From contig JAGBWT010000104.1 of NCBI GenBank assembly GCA_017629615.1, forward strand, positions 1-13,223: DNA of 13,223 nt. Reading direction: 5' to 3'. Source of the stretch: Alistipes sp. (GTDB lineage: Bacteria; Bacteroidota; Bacteroidia; Bacteroidales; Rikenellaceae). The notes below the pieces were generated by a model. That model saw only the letters and a program-made list of their open reading frames with translations, searched no databases and had not been told where the DNA came from. This document shows, piece by piece, positions 4,565 to 13,223 of the stretch (position 1 is the first letter of the stretch; every line of letters begins with the position of its first letter). The position numbers and the translations under genes were made by a program.

Positions 4565-5449
4565 TTAGATGCACTCCATTATCGTTTTCTGCAACGCATC
4601 GACAATCGAGCGCTTGACGTAGGTGCGACGTACGGCCAATGAAATCTTGCGCGACGAAGCGCCTTTGAGCAGCGTCTTTACCTGGCGCTTGCGCTTCTCG
4701 GGAACATAATCGACCGCCATCGCAGGTATGATGGTCATACTCGACGTGCAATCGACAATACGCATCAACGTATCGAGCGACCCCGACTCAAACGAGTAGC
4801 GCGACGGGTGTTGATGGCGCGCCAAACACAACTCCAAAACCTGGTCACGCATACAGTTTCCGACCGACAACAAAACCAAGTCCTTCATATCGATATCCGA
4901 TATCTGAACATTACTCTTGTTGTAGAGCGGATTTTGAGGCGAAACATAGGCAAAGAAGCGGTCGTCGAACAGCTCGATTTCGGTTATCGACTCGCCGCAA
5001 GTTCCACCCGCAACAAGGGCCACATCGAGGCTGTCACGATTCAGAGCCTCAACGATTTGCGCCGTATGCATCTCGCGCACCTCCAACTCGACTTTCGGGT
5101 AACGCGCCACAAATTCGGGAATAAATTTATGGAGCATATAAGGGGCTATCGTAGGTATCACACCAAGACGGATTTTACCCGCAATCTCGCCCTTCATCTG
5201 CTGCACCATCTCCTTGATGGCGTTGTACTCCTTCAACGCCTCTCGCGCTTGGGCCAAAACCGCCTCTCCCGCGACGGTCGGAACAACGGGTTTCTTGGAG
5301 CGGTCGAGCAGTATCACGTCCAACTCCGATTCGAGTGACTTAATCTGCATACTCAACGACGGCTGCGTCACAAAACAATGCTCGGCAGCAATCGAGAAAC
5401 TGCCATAGTTGGCTACCGCCAAAAGGTATTCGAGCTGAATAATAGTCAT
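4565..5449 (-). CDS. oxyR: LysR-family hydrogen peroxide sensor OxyR
   Basis: Transcription factor that senses H2O2 through a reversible disulfide and activates peroxide defence genes. The 294-residue protein has an N-terminal winged helix (about 1-60, with FVTQPSLSMQIKSLE as recognition region), a linker helix and a periplasmic-binding-like sensor domain. The redox pair falls at C199 and C208 in GNCMRDQVLELC, the same numbers and spacing as in E. coli OxyR. T100 (VIPTIAPY) and T129 (EMHTAQ), which help bind peroxide in studied OxyR proteins, are kept. Residues corresponding to E. coli H198 and H130 are N198 and A130, which may change reactivity. The gene has its own promoter (5473-5504) and terminator and is monocistronic. 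No catalase or peroxidase target is in the window. Confidence 0.9.
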   Translation of the reverse strand: MTIIQLEYLLAVANYGSFSIAAEHCFVTQPSLSMQIKSLESELDVILLDRSKKPVVPTVAGEAVLAQAREALKEYNAIKEMVQQMKGEIAGKIRLGVIPTIAPYMLHKFIPEFVARYPKVELEVREMHTAQIVEALNRDSLDVALVAGGTCGESITEIELFDDRFFAYVSPQNPLYNKSNVQISDIDMKDLVLLSVGNCMRDQVLELCLARHQHPSRYSFESGSLDTLMRIVDCTSSMTIIPAMAVDYVPEKRKRQVKTLLKGASSRKISLAVRRTYVKRSIVDALQKTIMECI

Positions 5450-5684: not shown

Positions 5685-7163
5685 TTATTTTTCCAAAACC
5701 AGACGAAAACCTATAAAATTAAAAGCACTATTTGGCAGCGCACTTTCGCGATTTGTCAATCGCAAGTTATTCTCAAATGTAACATACGCACCACCTCGGG
5801 CAACTCTATCAGAGCCATCGTTAGGACCTGTTGGATTTGTCTGCATTGCGCTATCATAACCAGCATATCTATCCTGACACCACTCCATAACATTTCCGGT
5901 CATATCATAGAGACCCAACTCATTTGGTTGTTTTTGACCGACCTTATGTGTTTTTCGGCCGCCATTTTTATAATACCACGCAACCTCATCAACATTGTTG
6001 CTTCCGCTACATTTATAGCCATTGCTTTTACGACCTCCACGAGCAGCATACTCCCATTCAGCCTCGGTTGGCAAGCGATATGTTTTACCACTCTTTTGAT
6101 TCAACTTTGCAATGAATTTCTGAACCTTATCCCAACTAACATTCTCAACAGGAAGATTATCATCACCCTTGAAATAGCTTGGCTTTTCGTTCATAATTGC
6201 TCTCCATTGCGCTTGTGTGATTTCGTACTTACTCATATAGAAATCCGAAACAACAACGTCGTGTATTGGAGCCTCATCTTGTGCTCCATCTGTCGCTCCC
6301 ATTGCAAATTTACCGCCTTCGACATACACCATTTCAAACAATGCATTGATGGCGTCCATCTCTTTTTGAGTCTCGGCATTTTGGGCAGCAATCTTTTGGT
6401 TATCTGCCGCCTGCTGTCGAGCGGCCGCTGCCGACCTTCTGGCCTCATCTTTAGCCTTTGCCGACTGCAATTTAGCCTGCTTCGCCTCTCGCTTAGCAAT
6501 CGTTTTGGAGAGCGAGCCGTGTACTACTTTGAACACTTTCAATCGTTTAGCCAACTTCTTTTCCGGCGTTTGAAGAGAATTATTCCAATTATCGAGAGCC
6601 TCAATTTTTTCTCCTATCACTTTCACCTCTTCCGAGCTCATTGCTGCGCGTAAATTATAGTATATCTCATTAACCATATCTCTCTTATAACGCCCAATTT
6701 GTCGTGGCGACATCTTCTTGATATCTCCCGAAACAAATATATCCAACAGAGTTCTATCAAGAATCGAATTTACAAATTCTGCAGCCTCCGCGTTATCCGA
6801 ATCCCAATCTATTATATTGATAACCTTGTAATAGCCACCAGACTGAATAACTACACCATTACCACCTTGTTTATACGCTTTTCTAACCGCATTGTCGTAA
6901 AACCTTTTATGATACTGGTATTTACGGCTCAACAATAATGGAATCCTAAAAGGATTGTAAATATTATATGAGATAACCTCATATTTCCCAGGTATTTCGG
7001 CATCAGAGGTAAACAAGCGCACCTTACCTTTAATCTCCAACTTTTCTGGTGTATTCATACGAATATCGTAATTGGCGCGCATAACTCTGGCATCGTAAAC
7101 CGTATGACAAGATGTAGCCACACACGCGACACACACTATCAGCAATAAATAAATCTTCTTCAT
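5685..7163 (-). CDS. lipoprotein with C-terminal SUMF1/formylglycine-generating-enzyme-like domain
   Basis: A 492-residue predicted lipoprotein: MKKIYLLLIVCVACVATSC gives a signal peptide with a lipobox and C19 as the lipidated residue. Residues 20-220 are a globular region I do not recognise, including KYEVISYNIYNPF and AVRKAYKQGGNGVVIQ. Residues 220-270 are Ala/Lys/Arg/Gln-rich, probably a coiled coil. Residues 277-491 are a clear FGE-sulfatase fold: MVYVEGGKFAMG, PVENVSWDKVQKF, YRLPTEAEWEYAARGG, LYDMTGNVMEWCQDRY, RVARGGAY and GFRLVLE. True formylglycine-generating enzymes need a cysteine pair after the R-V-x-x-G-G motif; here the place reads GGAYVTFENN with no cysteine, so sulfatase activation is unlikely. 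Such degenerate domains occur in cell-surface proteins such as GldK/GldJ. Its base composition is by eye more AT-rich than its neighbours. It has a long, structured leader upstream. Confidence 0.85.
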   Translation of the reverse strand: MKKIYLLLIVCVACVATSCHTVYDARVMRANYDIRMNTPEKLEIKGKVRLFTSDAEIPGKYEVISYNIYNPFRIPLLLSRKYQYHKRFYDNAVRKAYKQGGNGVVIQSGGYYKVINIIDWDSDNAEAAEFVNSILDRTLLDIFVSGDIKKMSPRQIGRYKRDMVNEIYYNLRAAMSSEEVKVIGEKIEALDNWNNSLQTPEKKLAKRLKVFKVVHGSLSKTIAKREAKQAKLQSAKAKDEARRSAAAARQQAADNQKIAAQNAETQKEMDAINALFEMVYVEGGKFAMGATDGAQDEAPIHDVVVSDFYMSKYEITQAQWRAIMNEKPSYFKGDDNLPVENVSWDKVQKFIAKLNQKSGKTYRLPTEAEWEYAARGGRKSNGYKCSGSNNVDEVAWYYKNGGRKTHKVGQKQPNELGLYDMTGNVMEWCQDRYAGYDSAMQTNPTGPNDGSDRVARGGAYVTFENNLRLTNRESALPNSAFNFIGFRLVLEK

Positions 7164-7197
7164 TACTCTACTTTTAATTATTTACAAATGAATATCT

Positions 7198-7391
7198 ATT
7201 CAGTCCGATAATTCGTTTGGGAGGGGTGGGAACTAAACAAAAAAAGTGCGGACTAAATTCGTCTATTGGAAATTGAGGTCTTCGACTACCTATGCACCCA
7301 AATATACGGAATAAAGCCCACACCAAGTATGATGTGAGCGTCAAACCTTATTCCACGGGTGCAATTTGAAAGTGTCGAAGTTTCAATTTCC
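7198..7391 (-). ncRNA. candidate structured RNA, family unknown (6S-like rod or cis-acting leader)
   Basis: Nested helices are visible directly. P1 is 7268-7276 with 7383-7391 (9 bp); P2 is 7280-7286 with 7374-7380 (7 bp); P3 is 7293-7299 with 7357-7363 (7 bp); P4 is 7308-7314 with 7348-7354 (7 bp, extendable); P5 is 7316-7324 with 7331-7339 (9 bp, 6-base loop). A second hairpin has P6, 7198-7207 with 7249-7258 (10 bp), and P7, 7212-7218 with 7235-7241 (7 bp). Six positions in or at the ends of these helices are A.C on the plus strand but G.U on the minus strand (7300/7356, 7315/7347, 7318/7337, 7323/7332, 7201/7255, 7214/7239), so the minus strand is the likely RNA. The largest bubble, between P2 and P3, has 10 and 6 unpaired bases. 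The element ends 34 bases before the lipoprotein ATG. A free RNA and a leader element are both possible; the exact ends are unknown. Confidence 0.6.
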
Positions 7392-7479
7392 CGAAATAAA
7401 ACTAACGCTTTTTATGTCTATATGTTCCTATTGTCTGTTATTCTACCATAGGCATTATCGGTTTTAATATTCACAATCG

Positions 7480-7510
7480 CAAAATTAGAATTTTATTTCA
7501 AAAAATGCAA
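7480..7510 (-). promoter_or_regulatory. leftward promoter (TTG-N20-TAATTTTG) for the structured RNA and lipoprotein gene
   Basis: Minus strand: TTG at 7510-7508, 20 bases, TAATTTTG at 7487-7480, both matching the Bacteroidota consensus. The start would be near 7474, about 80 bases before the first helix of the structured RNA and about 310 bases before the lipoprotein ATG. It is divergent from the trpS promoter, with about 80 bases between the two. Confidence 0.65.
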
Positions 7511-7724: not shown

Positions 7725-8855
7725 ATGGCAAAAATTATCCTCACAGGCGACCGTCCGACCGGACGACTCCATTTGGGCCACTTTGTCGGCTCGTTGCGCC
7801 GTCGCGTAGAGTTGCAGAACTCGGGCGAATTCGACAAAATCTTCATTATGATTGCCGATGCGCAAGCCTTGACCGACAATGCCGACAACCCCGAGAAGGT
7901 GCGTCAGAACATTATCGAGGTAGCATTGGACTACCTCTCGTGCGGTCTCGACCCCGAGAAATCGACAATTTTCATTCAGTCGCAGGTGGCCGAGTTGTGC
8001 GAGTTGGCTTTCTACTATATGAACCTTGTGACGGTGCAGCGTCTGCAACGCAATCCGACCGTGAAGACCGAGATTAAGATGCGCGGTTTTTCGGAGGAGG
8101 CGGCCGAAGGCGACACAACACAGCGTCAGGGCATACCTGTCGGTTTCTTCACCTACCCTATTTCGCAGGCCTCGGACATCACGGCCTTCCGTGCCACGAC
8201 CGTACCTGCGGGTGCCGACCAAGAGCCAATGATTGAGCAAGCGCGCGAGATTGTCCACAAATTCAACACAACATACGGCGAGACACTTGTCGAGCCTTCG
8301 ATACTTCTGCCGAACAACGCCGCCTGTATGCGACTTCCGGGTACCGACGGCAAGGCAAAGATGTCAAAATCGCTCGGCAACTGCATCTACCTATCGGATA
8401 CACCAAAAGAGGTTAAGCAGAAGGTGATGTCGATGTACACCGACCCCGACCATCTTCGCATCGAAGACCCGGGTAAGGTCGAGGGCAACTGCGTATTTAC
8501 CTATCTCGACGCATTCTGTCGCGACGAGCATTTCGAGAAGTATCTGCCCGACTACAAGAACCTCGACGAGATGAAGGAGCATTATCGCAGAGGTGGCTTG
8601 GGTGACGTAAAGTGCAAGAAGCTCTTGATTGCCGTATTGGAGGAGATGTTGGAGCCTATTCGCGCACGCCGCAAGGAGTGGGAGCAGAAGATTGAGGCCG
8701 TATATGCCATTCTCGAAGAGGGAACACGCGAGGCTCGTGCCACGGCTGCCGCAACGCTCCACGATGTACGCGAGGCTATGCGCATCAACTACTTCGAGGA
8801 CAAGGCCCTGATTGCCGAGCAGGCCGAGAGATACCGCGCGACTAACGCAAATTAA
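7725..8855 (+). CDS. trpS: tryptophanyl-tRNA synthetase
   Basis: Class I aminoacyl-tRNA synthetase that charges tRNA-Trp in the cytoplasm. The 376-residue protein starts [20 protein letters not shown], with the HIGH-type motif as HLGH at residues 16-19. The KMSKS loop is exact, in [11 protein letters not shown] (212-216 for KMSKS). Other family stretches are [19 protein letters not shown] and [17 protein letters not shown]. Its length is slightly above the 330-340 residues of E. coli-type TrpS because of an insertion around 110-135 and a long C-terminal helical part. It has its own promoter at 7590-7621 with an inverted repeat over the -33 box. The stop codon is built into the first copy of the AT-rich repeat that precedes the next gene. 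Confidence 0.97.
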
Positions 8856-8897: not shown

Positions 8898-9284
8898 ATG
8901 GAGGTTAATAGTAGCAACCTGATTGAAATTAAGAGTTTTGACTTCGCTGTTCGCATAGTTAATCTATACAAGCACATACTCAAAACTCATCACGAGCTAA
9001 ACCTCTCAAAACAAATATTGCGTAGCGGAACAAGTATTGGAGCCAACATCTGCGAGGCTACTCGCGCCCAATCGCGTAAGGACTTCATTGCGAAGATGAA
9101 TATCGCTCTAAAAGAGTCATACGAAACGGAGTATTGGTTGCGTTTACTACTCAAAACCGAATATATTTCAGAAACCGAATTTACAAGTATTCACACCGAC
9201 AACCACGATATTTCCAATATAATTGCGAGAATATTGATTACGAGCAAGAATAATCAAAAAGACGATACGTCTGACAACCCCTAA
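8898..9284 (+). CDS. four-helix bundle protein (23S rRNA intervening-sequence protein family)
   Basis: A 128-residue, all-helical protein of the family PF05635/TIGR02436, first met inside 23S rRNA intervening sequences and common as a stand-alone gene in Bacteroidota. Typical stretches are IKSFDFAVRIVNLYKHI, the conserved turn LRSGTSIGANICEATRAQSRKDFIAKM and ALKESYETEYWLRLL. The molecular role of the family is unknown; members form pentamers in known structures, as I recall. The gene sits between trpS and the ClC gene, has no clear promoter of its own, is more AT-rich by eye than both neighbours and is bracketed by inverse AT-rich repeats, which suggests an inserted cassette. No rRNA sequence surrounds it here. 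Confidence 0.9.
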   Translation: MEVNSSNLIEIKSFDFAVRIVNLYKHILKTHHELNLSKQILRSGTSIGANICEATRAQSRKDFIAKMNIALKESYETEYWLRLLLKTEYISETEFTSIHTDNHDISNIIARILITSKNNQKDDTSDNP

Positions 9285-11866: not shown

Positions 11867-12322
11867 ATGCCACAAATCACGATATACACCGACGGCTCTT
11901 CGCTCGGCAACCCTGGTGCGGGAGGCTATGGTGTTGTACTTATCAGCGGTCCTCACCGCAAGGAGCTATCGGCAGGCTTTCGCCTTACGACCAACAACCG
12001 TATGGAGTTGATGGCGGTATGCGTCGCGCTCGAAACGCTCAAATTCGAAGGCTCGGACGTTACGCTCTACTCCGACTCTAAATATGTGGTCGATGCCGTC
12101 GAGAAACGATGGGTGTTCGGCTGGGAGCGCAAGGGTTTTTCGGGCAAGAAGAACCCCGACCTTTGGGCGCGTTTTCTGCGCGTATATCGCCGACACAACG
12201 TTCGATTTGTATGGGTTAAAGGGCACGCCGAGACGGTCGAGAACAACCGTTGCGATGCGCTTGCCGTAGCCGCAGCCAATGGCCCTGCACTCAAAGAGGA
12301 CGTTGGGTATCAACCCGAATAG
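11867..12322 (+). CDS. rnhA: ribonuclease HI
   Basis: Degrades the RNA strand of RNA-DNA hybrids, removing R-loops and primers. The 151-residue length is normal. The DEDD active site is complete: D9 in [12 protein letters not shown]47 in [10 protein letters not shown]70 in LYSDSKYV and D130 in NNRCDALA; the assisting histidine is H120 in VKGHAE. The basic protrusion that grips the hybrid is present ([16 protein letters not shown], 80-95), as in the E. coli enzyme. It is the last gene of the ClC-HAD-rnhA set, starting 3 bases after the HAD stop, and is followed by a strong terminator. Confidence 0.97.
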
Positions 12323-12375
12323 GCGACACACCTATATATAATATCGGCCACCCACTTTGGGCAAGTGCCAAAGAA

Positions 12376-12417
12376 AAATAGCAGGGTGCATACGTCAAAG
12401 TATGCACCCTGCTATTT
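12376..12417. terminator. bidirectional terminator between rnhA and valS
   Basis: An 18-bp perfect stem (12376-12393 with 12400-12417) around a 6-base loop. The plus strand has five A before it and TTATTAT following the stem; the minus strand ends in T-rich sequence too. It lies 53 bases past rnhA and 21 bases past the convergent valS stop, so it should end transcripts from both sides. Confidence 0.9.
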
Positions 12418-12438
12418 ATTATCAGTGGAGCAATCGCT

Positions 12439-13223
12439 CTATTTCAAAGCTGCGAGTTGCGCCTGAATAGCGGCAATCTTTGCCTCGGCATCGGACTGCT
12501 TCGCACGCTCGTTGGCTACCACCTGCGCAGGGGCCGACGAGACAAAGCGCTCGTTCGACAACTTCTTCATAACCGACGCAAGGAAGCCCTCGTAGTAGGC
12601 CAAATCCTTCTCCAACTTGGCAATCTCCTCCTCAACATTGAGATTATCGCCAAGCGGAATAGAGTATTGCGTCGTCTTAACGATAAAGGCGGCGTCCATA
12701 GGATTCTTCTCCCCGACGAATGTCACAGCCGAGAGGTTGGCCATCTTTGCGATGACTGCCTCGTACTCCGACGGATAGTTCTCGTCGCGAACGACCTTCA
12801 ACTCCAAAGCCTCCTTTTGTGGCAAATTCTTCTGCTTACGAACATTACGCACAGCCGAAACAACCTCCTGCGCCAACGCAAAGCGAGCCAACGCAGCCTC
12901 ATCGACAGCGCCCGCCTTCGGCATCAGAGCAACGCAGATAGATTCGCCCTCCTTACGCTCGGCCAAATCCTGCCAAATCTCCTCGGTCACGAATGGCATA
13001 AATGGGTGGAGGAGCAACATCAGCTGCTCGAACATCTGCTTGGTTGCAGCCATCGTCGCAGCGTCGCAAGGCGAGCCGTATGCCGGCTTAATCATCTCCA
13101 AGTACCAGCCGCTGAAATCGTCCCAGAAGAGTTTGTAGGCAACCATCAGGGCCTCCGAGATGCGGTAGTTGGTGAAGTTATCCTCGATTTCGGCCAATGC
13201 AGCGTTGAAGCGGTTGGTAAACC
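12439..13223 (-). CDS. valS: valyl-tRNA synthetase, C-terminal part (cut by right window edge)
   Basis: The minus strand is open from the right edge to a TAG at 12439. The visible part covers the anticodon-binding domain and the C-terminal arm of ValS. Family stretches are NRFNAALAEIE, FTNYRISEALMVAYKLFWDD, GWYLEMIKP, LLHPFMPFVTEEIWQDL and RNVRKQKNLPQKEAL. The end is the typical Val-tRNA synthetase coiled-coil arm: NVEEEIAKLEKDLAYYEGFL, then KLSNERFVSSAPAQVVANER, and a terminal helix ending AALK. The catalytic core (HIGH and KMSKS) is outside the window. Valine identity rests mainly on this arm and on the K-L-x-N-x-x-F-x-x-x-A-P pattern. It converges on rnhA and shares its terminator. Confidence 0.93.
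   Translation of the reverse strand, partial: FTNRFNAALAEIEDNFTNYRISEALMVAYKLFWDDFSGWYLEMIKPAYGSPCDAATMAATKQMFEQLMLLLHPFMPFVTEEIWQDLAERKEGESICVALMPKAGAVDEAALARFALAQEVVSAVRNVRKQKNLPQKEALELKVVRDENYPSEYEAVIAKMANLSAVTFVGEKNPMDAAFIVKTTQYSIPLGDNLNVEEEIAKLEKDLAYYEGFLASVMKKLSNERFVSSAPAQVVANERAKQSDAEAKIAAIQAQLAALK

Follow-up and report, generated by a model that had tools for sequence, protein, structure and literature searches.

Positions 7198-7490 on the minus strand of the 13,223-nt stretch of Alistipes sp. DNA analysed here (contig JAGBWT010000104.1; below, the window) are best explained as a member of a new family of structured RNAs, found across the phylum, that serve as 5' leaders of genes for exported proteins. 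On balance we favour a model in which a mini-ORF, a basal stem and a pseudoknot of this leader act on translation, possibly in a shunt-like manner. That the RNA is a cis leader of exported genes appears very likely, because the order of its parts, from promoter box through mini-ORF, basal stem and rod to pseudoknot and exported gene, is shared among the copies. It is likely, with somewhat less assurance, that translation of the mini-ORF matters, while shunting or reinitiation as the specific mechanism is a tentative proposal. The structure and its association with a promoter box, a mini-ORF and an exported gene are established by sequence comparison; we infer that the RNA has a cis effect on how the gene behind it is translated. 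An earlier note on this DNA had picked out the rod and P6 but overlooked the outer stem, the exported-protein gene into which the RNA leads and, upstream of the RNA, both the promoter box and the mini-ORF at 7438-7449. The features are listed below in transcript order.

7198-7490, minus strand: RNA leader unit, one copy of the structured RNA family
7480-7487, minus strand: promoter box TAATTTTG, matching TAnnTTTG
7438-7449, minus strand: mini-uORF AUG GUA GAA UAA, with a further in-frame AUG at 7453-7455
7424-7428, minus strand: 5' strand of the outer basal stem P0, GGAAC, 9 nt past the mini-uORF stop
7239-7413, minus strand: modelled core of the RNA
7406-7413, minus strand: AAAAAGCG, nearly invariant core start (from alignments)
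7268-7391, minus strand: rod P1-P5 (predicted fold and covariation)
7383-7391/7268-7276, minus strand: rod helix of 9 bp (fold)
7374-7380/7280-7286, minus strand: rod helix of 7 bp (fold)
7356-7363/7293-7300, minus strand: rod helix of 8 bp (fold)
7330-7339/7316-7325, minus strand: apical rod helix of 10 bp (fold)
7249-7258, minus strand: 5' strand of the P6 pseudoknot, AUUUAGUCCG, conserved GUCC with compensatory variants
7239-7245, minus strand: conserved U-run (from alignments)
7235-7241/7212-7218, minus strand: P7, 7 bp (fold)
7229-7233, minus strand: 3' strand of P0, GUUCC, pairing with 7424-7428
7198-7207, minus strand: 3' strand of the P6 pseudoknot, CGGACUGAAU, pairing over 10 bp with 7249-7258
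5685-7163, minus strand: downstream gene, 492 aa, lipoprotein-like N-terminus, FGE-sulfatase domain (PF03781)

Fold, covariation and pseudoknot

The region 7190-7420 was refolded on each strand and compared with 200 shuffles. The minus strand folds at -70.8 kcal/mol (z -5.64), a value equalled by none of the shuffles; the plus strand reaches -62.1 (z -3.42), equalled by one. Besides the rod helices listed above, the minus-strand fold of the rod contains a 4-bp helix and short steps of 2-3 bp. The earlier note had drawn seven helices of 7-10 bp by eye; the fold has six of that length, and the note's continuous rod P1-P5 was recovered both by refolding and by covariation. It had also argued for the minus strand from the asymmetry of G.U pairs. 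The strand is right, and the argument is weak alone, since the folding program permits no other mismatch; of the eight G.U pairs in the minus-strand fold, one belongs to a small additional hairpin that is not part of the rod.

The real support for the predicted RNA is covariation. In a structure-free MAFFT alignment of five copies, 16 of the 76 predicted pairs are changed on both sides, with a slightly unfavourable RNAalifold covariation term (+2.8); the copy at locus L082 has a different P1 with its pairing kept. The larger alignments (A4-A7) were, unlike that one, fitted to the model structure and so favour it. With that bias, the covariation term is favourable for 92 copies (-8.93; 28 of 34 pairs), and among 101 copies double-sided changes occur in 41 of 46 pairs, which 0 of 500 shuffles match. 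The same 101 copies have 925 double-changed cells versus 267 in shuffles (0/500), and 94.4% of cells pair versus 36-45% when the partner is slid by 1-3 columns. The model for A7 was given 100 sources, some near-duplicates being left out. These alignments of 5, 92 and 101 copies rule out a chance fold, and they supply the homologues with compensatory changes that the earlier note had proposed to look for. Its multi-helix RNA on the minus strand is real.

P6 and P7 had been drawn as a second hairpin. P6 does belong to the RNA, and the comparisons identify it as a conserved pseudoknot strand pair tied to the outer stem rather than an independent hairpin: its 5' strand (GUCC) lies within the outer stem and its 3' strand (GGAC) past it. 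For P7, no counterpart was seen by eye in other copies. Among 119 copies, the P6 helix scores 15.45 with its own partner versus 13.42 with swapped partners (sd 0.23, 60 swaps), and the 27 copies that do not have GUCC still score 14.35 versus 12.16 (0/200). Compensatory variants include GUUCCACG/CGUGGAAC in L167 and GGUUCCA/UGGAACC in L189 and, judged by eye in phylum-wide loci, GUUCC/GGAAC in L220 and AACCC/GGGUU in L225. The outer stem P0 behaves similarly (own 15.43, swapped 13.63, sd 0.24, 60 swaps, 119 copies). Both swap tests, on 119-120 copies, include the weak divergent copies L004, L083, L085 and L088 and exclude L136, which failed the U-run rule. A strong outer helix was assigned in 40 of 93 copies, leaving 53 without one. 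We infer that AAAAAGCG at 7406-7413 can also pair with CUUUUU at 7241-7246; it is too invariant to covary.

The 5' strand of the outer stem has, in many copies, an alternative partner in the mini-ORF region. In the window, CCUAU/AUAGG competes with GGAAC/GUUCC; in L087, GUACGC pairs either with GCGUAU at the stop codon or, within GGUACGCACAU, with AUGUGCGUAUU after the U-run. An overlap of 2 nt or more between the two alternative helices was counted in 49 of 81 copies. In 63 of 82, the local hairpin is better than its shuffles are on average. On these figures a pairing switch between outer stem and mini-ORF region is only suggestive, and we treat it as plausible.

Promoter box, mini-ORF and downstream genes

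The sequence TAnnTTTG, which we take to be the -7 promoter box of Bacteroidota, occurs within 200 nt upstream of the RNA in 83 of 91 copies (L117, with a short upstream sequence, was excluded), versus 11% of shuffled upstream sequences; in background 200-nt pieces, mostly coding, it occurs in 83 of 1980. A box of the GCC.AUG type stands ahead of the RNA in 83 of 92 copies and is absent in nine (L144, L147, L148, L156, L158, L160, L161, L170 and L172). All 83 boxed copies have an in-frame stop after 0-5 codons, as compared with 28 and 36 of the 83 in frames +1 and +2. Two codons precede the stop in 64 copies, one in eight, four in six, three in two, five in two and none in one. Once extra loci were added, the mini-ORF was present in 94 copies with varied codons, AAA being the commonest, followed by CAT, GTA, AAG and others; neither a conserved peptide nor regulatory codons were found in it. 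In three order-wide copies (L190, L191 and L196) the AUG is followed immediately by a stop. The fixed place of the mini-ORF together with its free codon content suggests that initiation and termination on it matter, not its peptide.

From the promoter box to the AUG of the mini-ORF the median distance is 28 nt (74 copies). This spacing is compatible with translation beginning at the transcript's first ORF, given that most mRNAs of B. thetaiotaomicron have a 23-nt 5' UTR according to the accessible part of PMC7366714. From the stop of the mini-ORF to the outer stem the median is 9 nt (range 0-29), with 5-10 nt in 25 of the 40 copies that have a strong outer helix (of 93); the window has 9 nt and a 5-bp helix. 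Among nine phylum-wide loci a short frame (AUG, 0-4 codons, stop) near the RNA start is found only in L219 and L227, where it follows the promoter box, and the mini-ORF may therefore belong mainly to the order.

A co-directional ORF starts within 160 nt of the RNA in 80 of 92 copies, at a median of 62 nt, and is absent in 12. The minimum ORF was 60 aa or open-ended in the copies and 75 aa in the background. By a crude home-made rule, applied identically to copies and background, 77 of these 80 ORFs have a signal-peptide- or membrane-like N-terminus versus 109 of 311 background ORFs (p ~1e-25), the three others being at L147, L148 and L156; a lipobox is present in 41 of 80 versus 32 of 311 (p ~2e-14). 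When 20 downstream proteins were scanned with Pfam, nine had no family at E 1e-3 and the remainder were varied (LysM, PEGA, BACON with LRR, outer-membrane barrel, WG repeats and others); no metabolic or ligand theme was seen among the 20. In L089-L091, which are close to the window copy, a short hydrophobic ORF (MCTICLVSFVSSFAYA-like, by eye) lies downstream instead of a long gene.

On the transcript we propose, the promoter would be followed by about 20 nt (from a presumed start site), the mini-ORF of a start, 0-5 codons and a stop, the basal stem some 9 nt past that stop and the rod P1-P5. The pseudoknot GUCC/GGAC would then close over the basal stem, and the gene would start about 60 nt past the core. 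A ribosome would start and end on the mini-ORF at the foot of the stem. Where the basal-stem strand pairs with the mini-ORF region instead, as it can in many copies, loading of the mini-ORF would be coupled to closing of stem and pseudoknot. The small subunit might then be handed over the rod to the gene start, by shunt or reinitiation, or be kept from it.

The main rival to this translational model remains a ligand- or protein-sensing leader, in which the highly conserved rod tip and the asymmetric loops would bind a ligand, an envelope-stress protein or a metabolite, and the mini-ORF would supply ribosome traffic only. We regard it as unlikely, though as the best placed of the alternatives. 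The rod has long near-invariant stretches, more than pairing requires, as a binding site might; diverse downstream genes with the single theme of export would fit a global envelope signal; and a cis-regulatory candidate, DUF805b, adjoins some copies. A terminator scan also flags the apical hairpin 7316-7339, followed by TTTATT, as terminator-like (one site, 0.3 expected), which leaves room for attenuation inside the rod. Against a sensing leader stand the lack of a metabolic theme among the 20 scanned proteins and the conservation of the mini-ORF, which requires a reason.

Distribution of copies and the trpS locus

Whole genomes of five named relatives were searched and two contain clear copies (89, 79, 72 and 72% identity). 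A covariance model, R1, was built first and a broader one, R2, from 101 copies. At an E limit of 0.01, R1 recognises the RNA in 136 of the 151 genomes searched from the genus of a close relative, G005; at 0.001 it does so in 81 of 247 from the order of that relative. R2, at an E limit of 1e-4, recognises it in 51 of 395 genomes from across the phylum. For these genus, order and phylum surveys at most 18, 11 and 7 candidates per genome were scored, and copy numbers there are lower bounds. Eight genomes, chosen as rich or well assembled and with 150 candidates scored in each, have 37, 26, 24, 21, 19, 14, 11 and 6 copies (E limit 0.001), and four more copies lie within 400 kb of background from such genomes. 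The sample is not blind, since copies were found by similarity to that of the window. In the set of 92 the partial copy L114 was left out, and L081 and L082, which are the same places as L089 and L093, were counted once. In four genomes (G168, G222, G199 and G326) several copies lie within about 1 kb of a contig start, like assembly-breaking repeats.

The nine phylum-wide loci are less uniform in what follows the RNA. L220, L224 and L225 precede exported ORFs of the MK.. type (124-281 aa) and L223 a lipoprotein-like ORF of 41 aa; L222 and L227 have ORFs of 38 and 93 aa that do not have an exported-type start, and in L219, L221 and L226 no ORF of 25 aa was found within 200 nt. These last five thus lack an exported-type ORF within 200 nt, as would be expected of a free small RNA, 6S-like or base-pairing, that has its own promoter and stands before genes by chance. 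Its own promoter box, the U-run past the rod and a rod plan that recalls 6S would suit such an RNA as well. It is nevertheless an improbable reading of the family: a co-directional ORF follows so regularly and so closely (80 of 92 copies, 77 of them exported-type), the scan reported no terminator at the U-run 7239-7245 of the window, and the eight genomes counted in depth hold 6-37 copies each, none of the copies scanned matching 6S. Four of the phylum-wide loci (L219, L221, L226 and L227, at about 1501-1659) form a sub-class with a GCUGAG-type sequence ahead of the U-run, which in three of them pairs by eye with a downstream CUCAGC-like strand. Directly downstream of these copies there is no gene of the exported type, and the sub-class may represent a free RNA.

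The excess of signal-peptide- or membrane-like starts across unrelated families could also mean that the RNA is a targeting signal by which messages for exported proteins reach the membrane or the Sec/SRP machinery. This is a more doubtful reading still. No finding here ties the RNA to the membrane, and with 37 copies in the richest genome most exported genes must do without it.

In the window, the element lies between trpS on the plus strand (7725-8855, identified by eye; best identity 93%, to Alistipes and Rikenellaceae MAG proteins) and the minus-strand FGE-domain gene, after which comes a lysR-type gene (4565-5449). The lysR gene is present in 54 of 80 trpS loci of relatives. Across these 80 loci the FGE protein has no tblastn match at E 1e-5, and blastn of 7161-7500 gave short matches only, none significant (E 0.14 or worse), so that RNA and FGE-domain gene look like a unit inserted at the trpS locus. 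With model R2, L004 is the sole locus of the 80 with a copy, a divergent one, between lysR and trpS, and that copy precedes a lipoprotein different from that of the window; no copy was found between lysR and trpS in the remaining loci, 53 of which have lysR. L053 has a weak R2 match on the other side of trpS.

Two further features of the window were noted. Between trpS and a CLC channel gene (by eye) lies a gene for a protein of the 23S rRNA-intervening-sequence type (8898-9284, PF05635), which has tblastn matches in just 3 of the 80 related trpS loci. A near-perfect inverted repeat at 12369-12425, flanked by an RNase H gene (by eye, 11867-12322) and an opposite-strand gene ending at 12439, is perhaps a bidirectional terminator; it has sub-threshold miRNA matches in Rfam. 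The nearby FGE-domain and PF05635 proteins raised the question of a diversity-generating retroelement. It was rejected: no reverse transcriptase was recognised by eye in the ORF list, of which four proteins were scanned with Pfam, and other copies of the RNA head many different kinds of genes.

A mobile element at the DNA level (attC-like or a MITE), its hairpin acting as single-stranded DNA and spreading with a cargo gene, would account for an RNA-gene pair in the lysR-trpS interval of the window and of L004 (where the gene is a different one) that model R2 did not find in that interval at the other trpS loci, for copies dispersed at sites unrelated to trpS, and for one copy with an exported-type ORF on a 44-kb viral contig (L198:857-1020, a model match). 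It is hardly credible, since covarying structure, promoter box and mini-ORF agree on one strand and the conserved sequence extends far beyond that of attC. Searches of plasmids and phages with blastn found no copy.

Comparison with known RNAs and leaders

The RNA had been called unclassified, and the Rfam search proposed with that description bears it out: nothing in the window matches at E up to 5, and with Rfam 15 the rod is unmatched at E up to 1 in 36 copy-bearing loci. This covers 6S (RF00013) and 6S-flavo (RF01685), which the rod with its asymmetric internal loops recalls. The resemblance to 6S remarked on in the earlier note is superficial. 6S RNA is encoded by one or two free-standing genes per genome, whereas the present RNA has 6-37 copies in each of eight genomes and occupies a leader position, with promoter box, mini-ORF and gene on one strand; we therefore rejected 6S.

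The nearest recognised RNAs are DUF805b (RF02914) and DUF805 (RF03081), cis-regulatory candidates in Rfam with models of 35 and 68 nt. DUF805b lies shortly past the rod in L189 (1705-1740, E 1.4e-8, above gathering) and, below gathering, in L182, L139, L122 and L120; L182 has the DUF805 RNA as well (L182:1700-1858 is the DUF805b/DUF805 region). These matches, in five of the 36 copy-bearing loci and none in the window, fall outside the rod. DUF805b and DUF805 are separate short motifs, and they place the RNA in a setting already suspected to be cis-regulatory. Our literature search found no paper on either, and among the titles and abstracts retrieved none describes the rod RNA; supplements (e.g. 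that of PMC8040213, with its thousands of RNA candidates, or that of PMC2864571) may still do so.

With copies in 136 of the 151 genomes sampled from a gut-associated genus group and a spread through the phylum, a family whose scanned copies go unrecognised by Rfam 15 would amount to a regulon, in common gut bacteria, of proteins that are secreted or lie on the surface. Even as an ordinary riboswitch, it would be an entry point for studying how these bacteria control the expression levels of dozens of lipoproteins. Because a conserved start-stop mini-ORF stands at a fixed place ahead of a structured RNA, it also raises a testable question: can a bacterial ribosome pass across structure from a mini-ORF to a gene?

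Among bacterial leaders, the uORF candidates ilvB, odc1 and fthC have, in the accessible text of PMC11109978 and PMC8632094, a structured 5' leader and a conserved in-frame start and stop before the main ORF. The present RNA likewise has a conserved in-frame start and stop before the main ORF, on what is presumably a single transcript. As described in those same portions, each of these motifs belongs to one gene or operon type and one taxon; here the genes are many, unrelated and exported, the copies per genome are many, and there is no conserved peptide. Ordinary bacterial reinitiation is discussed for far shorter distances (10-11 bp in the accessible part of PMC4833913).

The layout also resembles that of the shunt leaders of plant viruses. 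The part of PMC5902531 available describes a 5'-proximal short uORF, which may be as small as a start and a stop codon, with 7 nt in RTBV and 8 nt in RTSV separating its stop from the basal stem, and an AU-rich landing ahead of the next start. The leader described here also has a 5'-proximal short ORF (83 of 92 copies, a median of 28 nt past the promoter box), and its stop-to-stem distance, a median of 9 nt (range 0-29) in the 40 of 93 copies with a strong outer helix, can be set beside the viral values. The viral leaders covered in that text are eukaryotic, whereas this one is bacterial and contains a pseudoknot. The broadest reading, which we hold to be somewhat less probable than shunting itself, is that throughout Bacteroidota tens of mRNAs per genome for unrelated exported proteins share a leader in which a start-stop mini-ORF is read first and the rod and pseudoknot come next, a bacterial counterpart of viral shunting in which initiation, and not a peptide or a metabolite, would coordinate the proteins of the cell surface.
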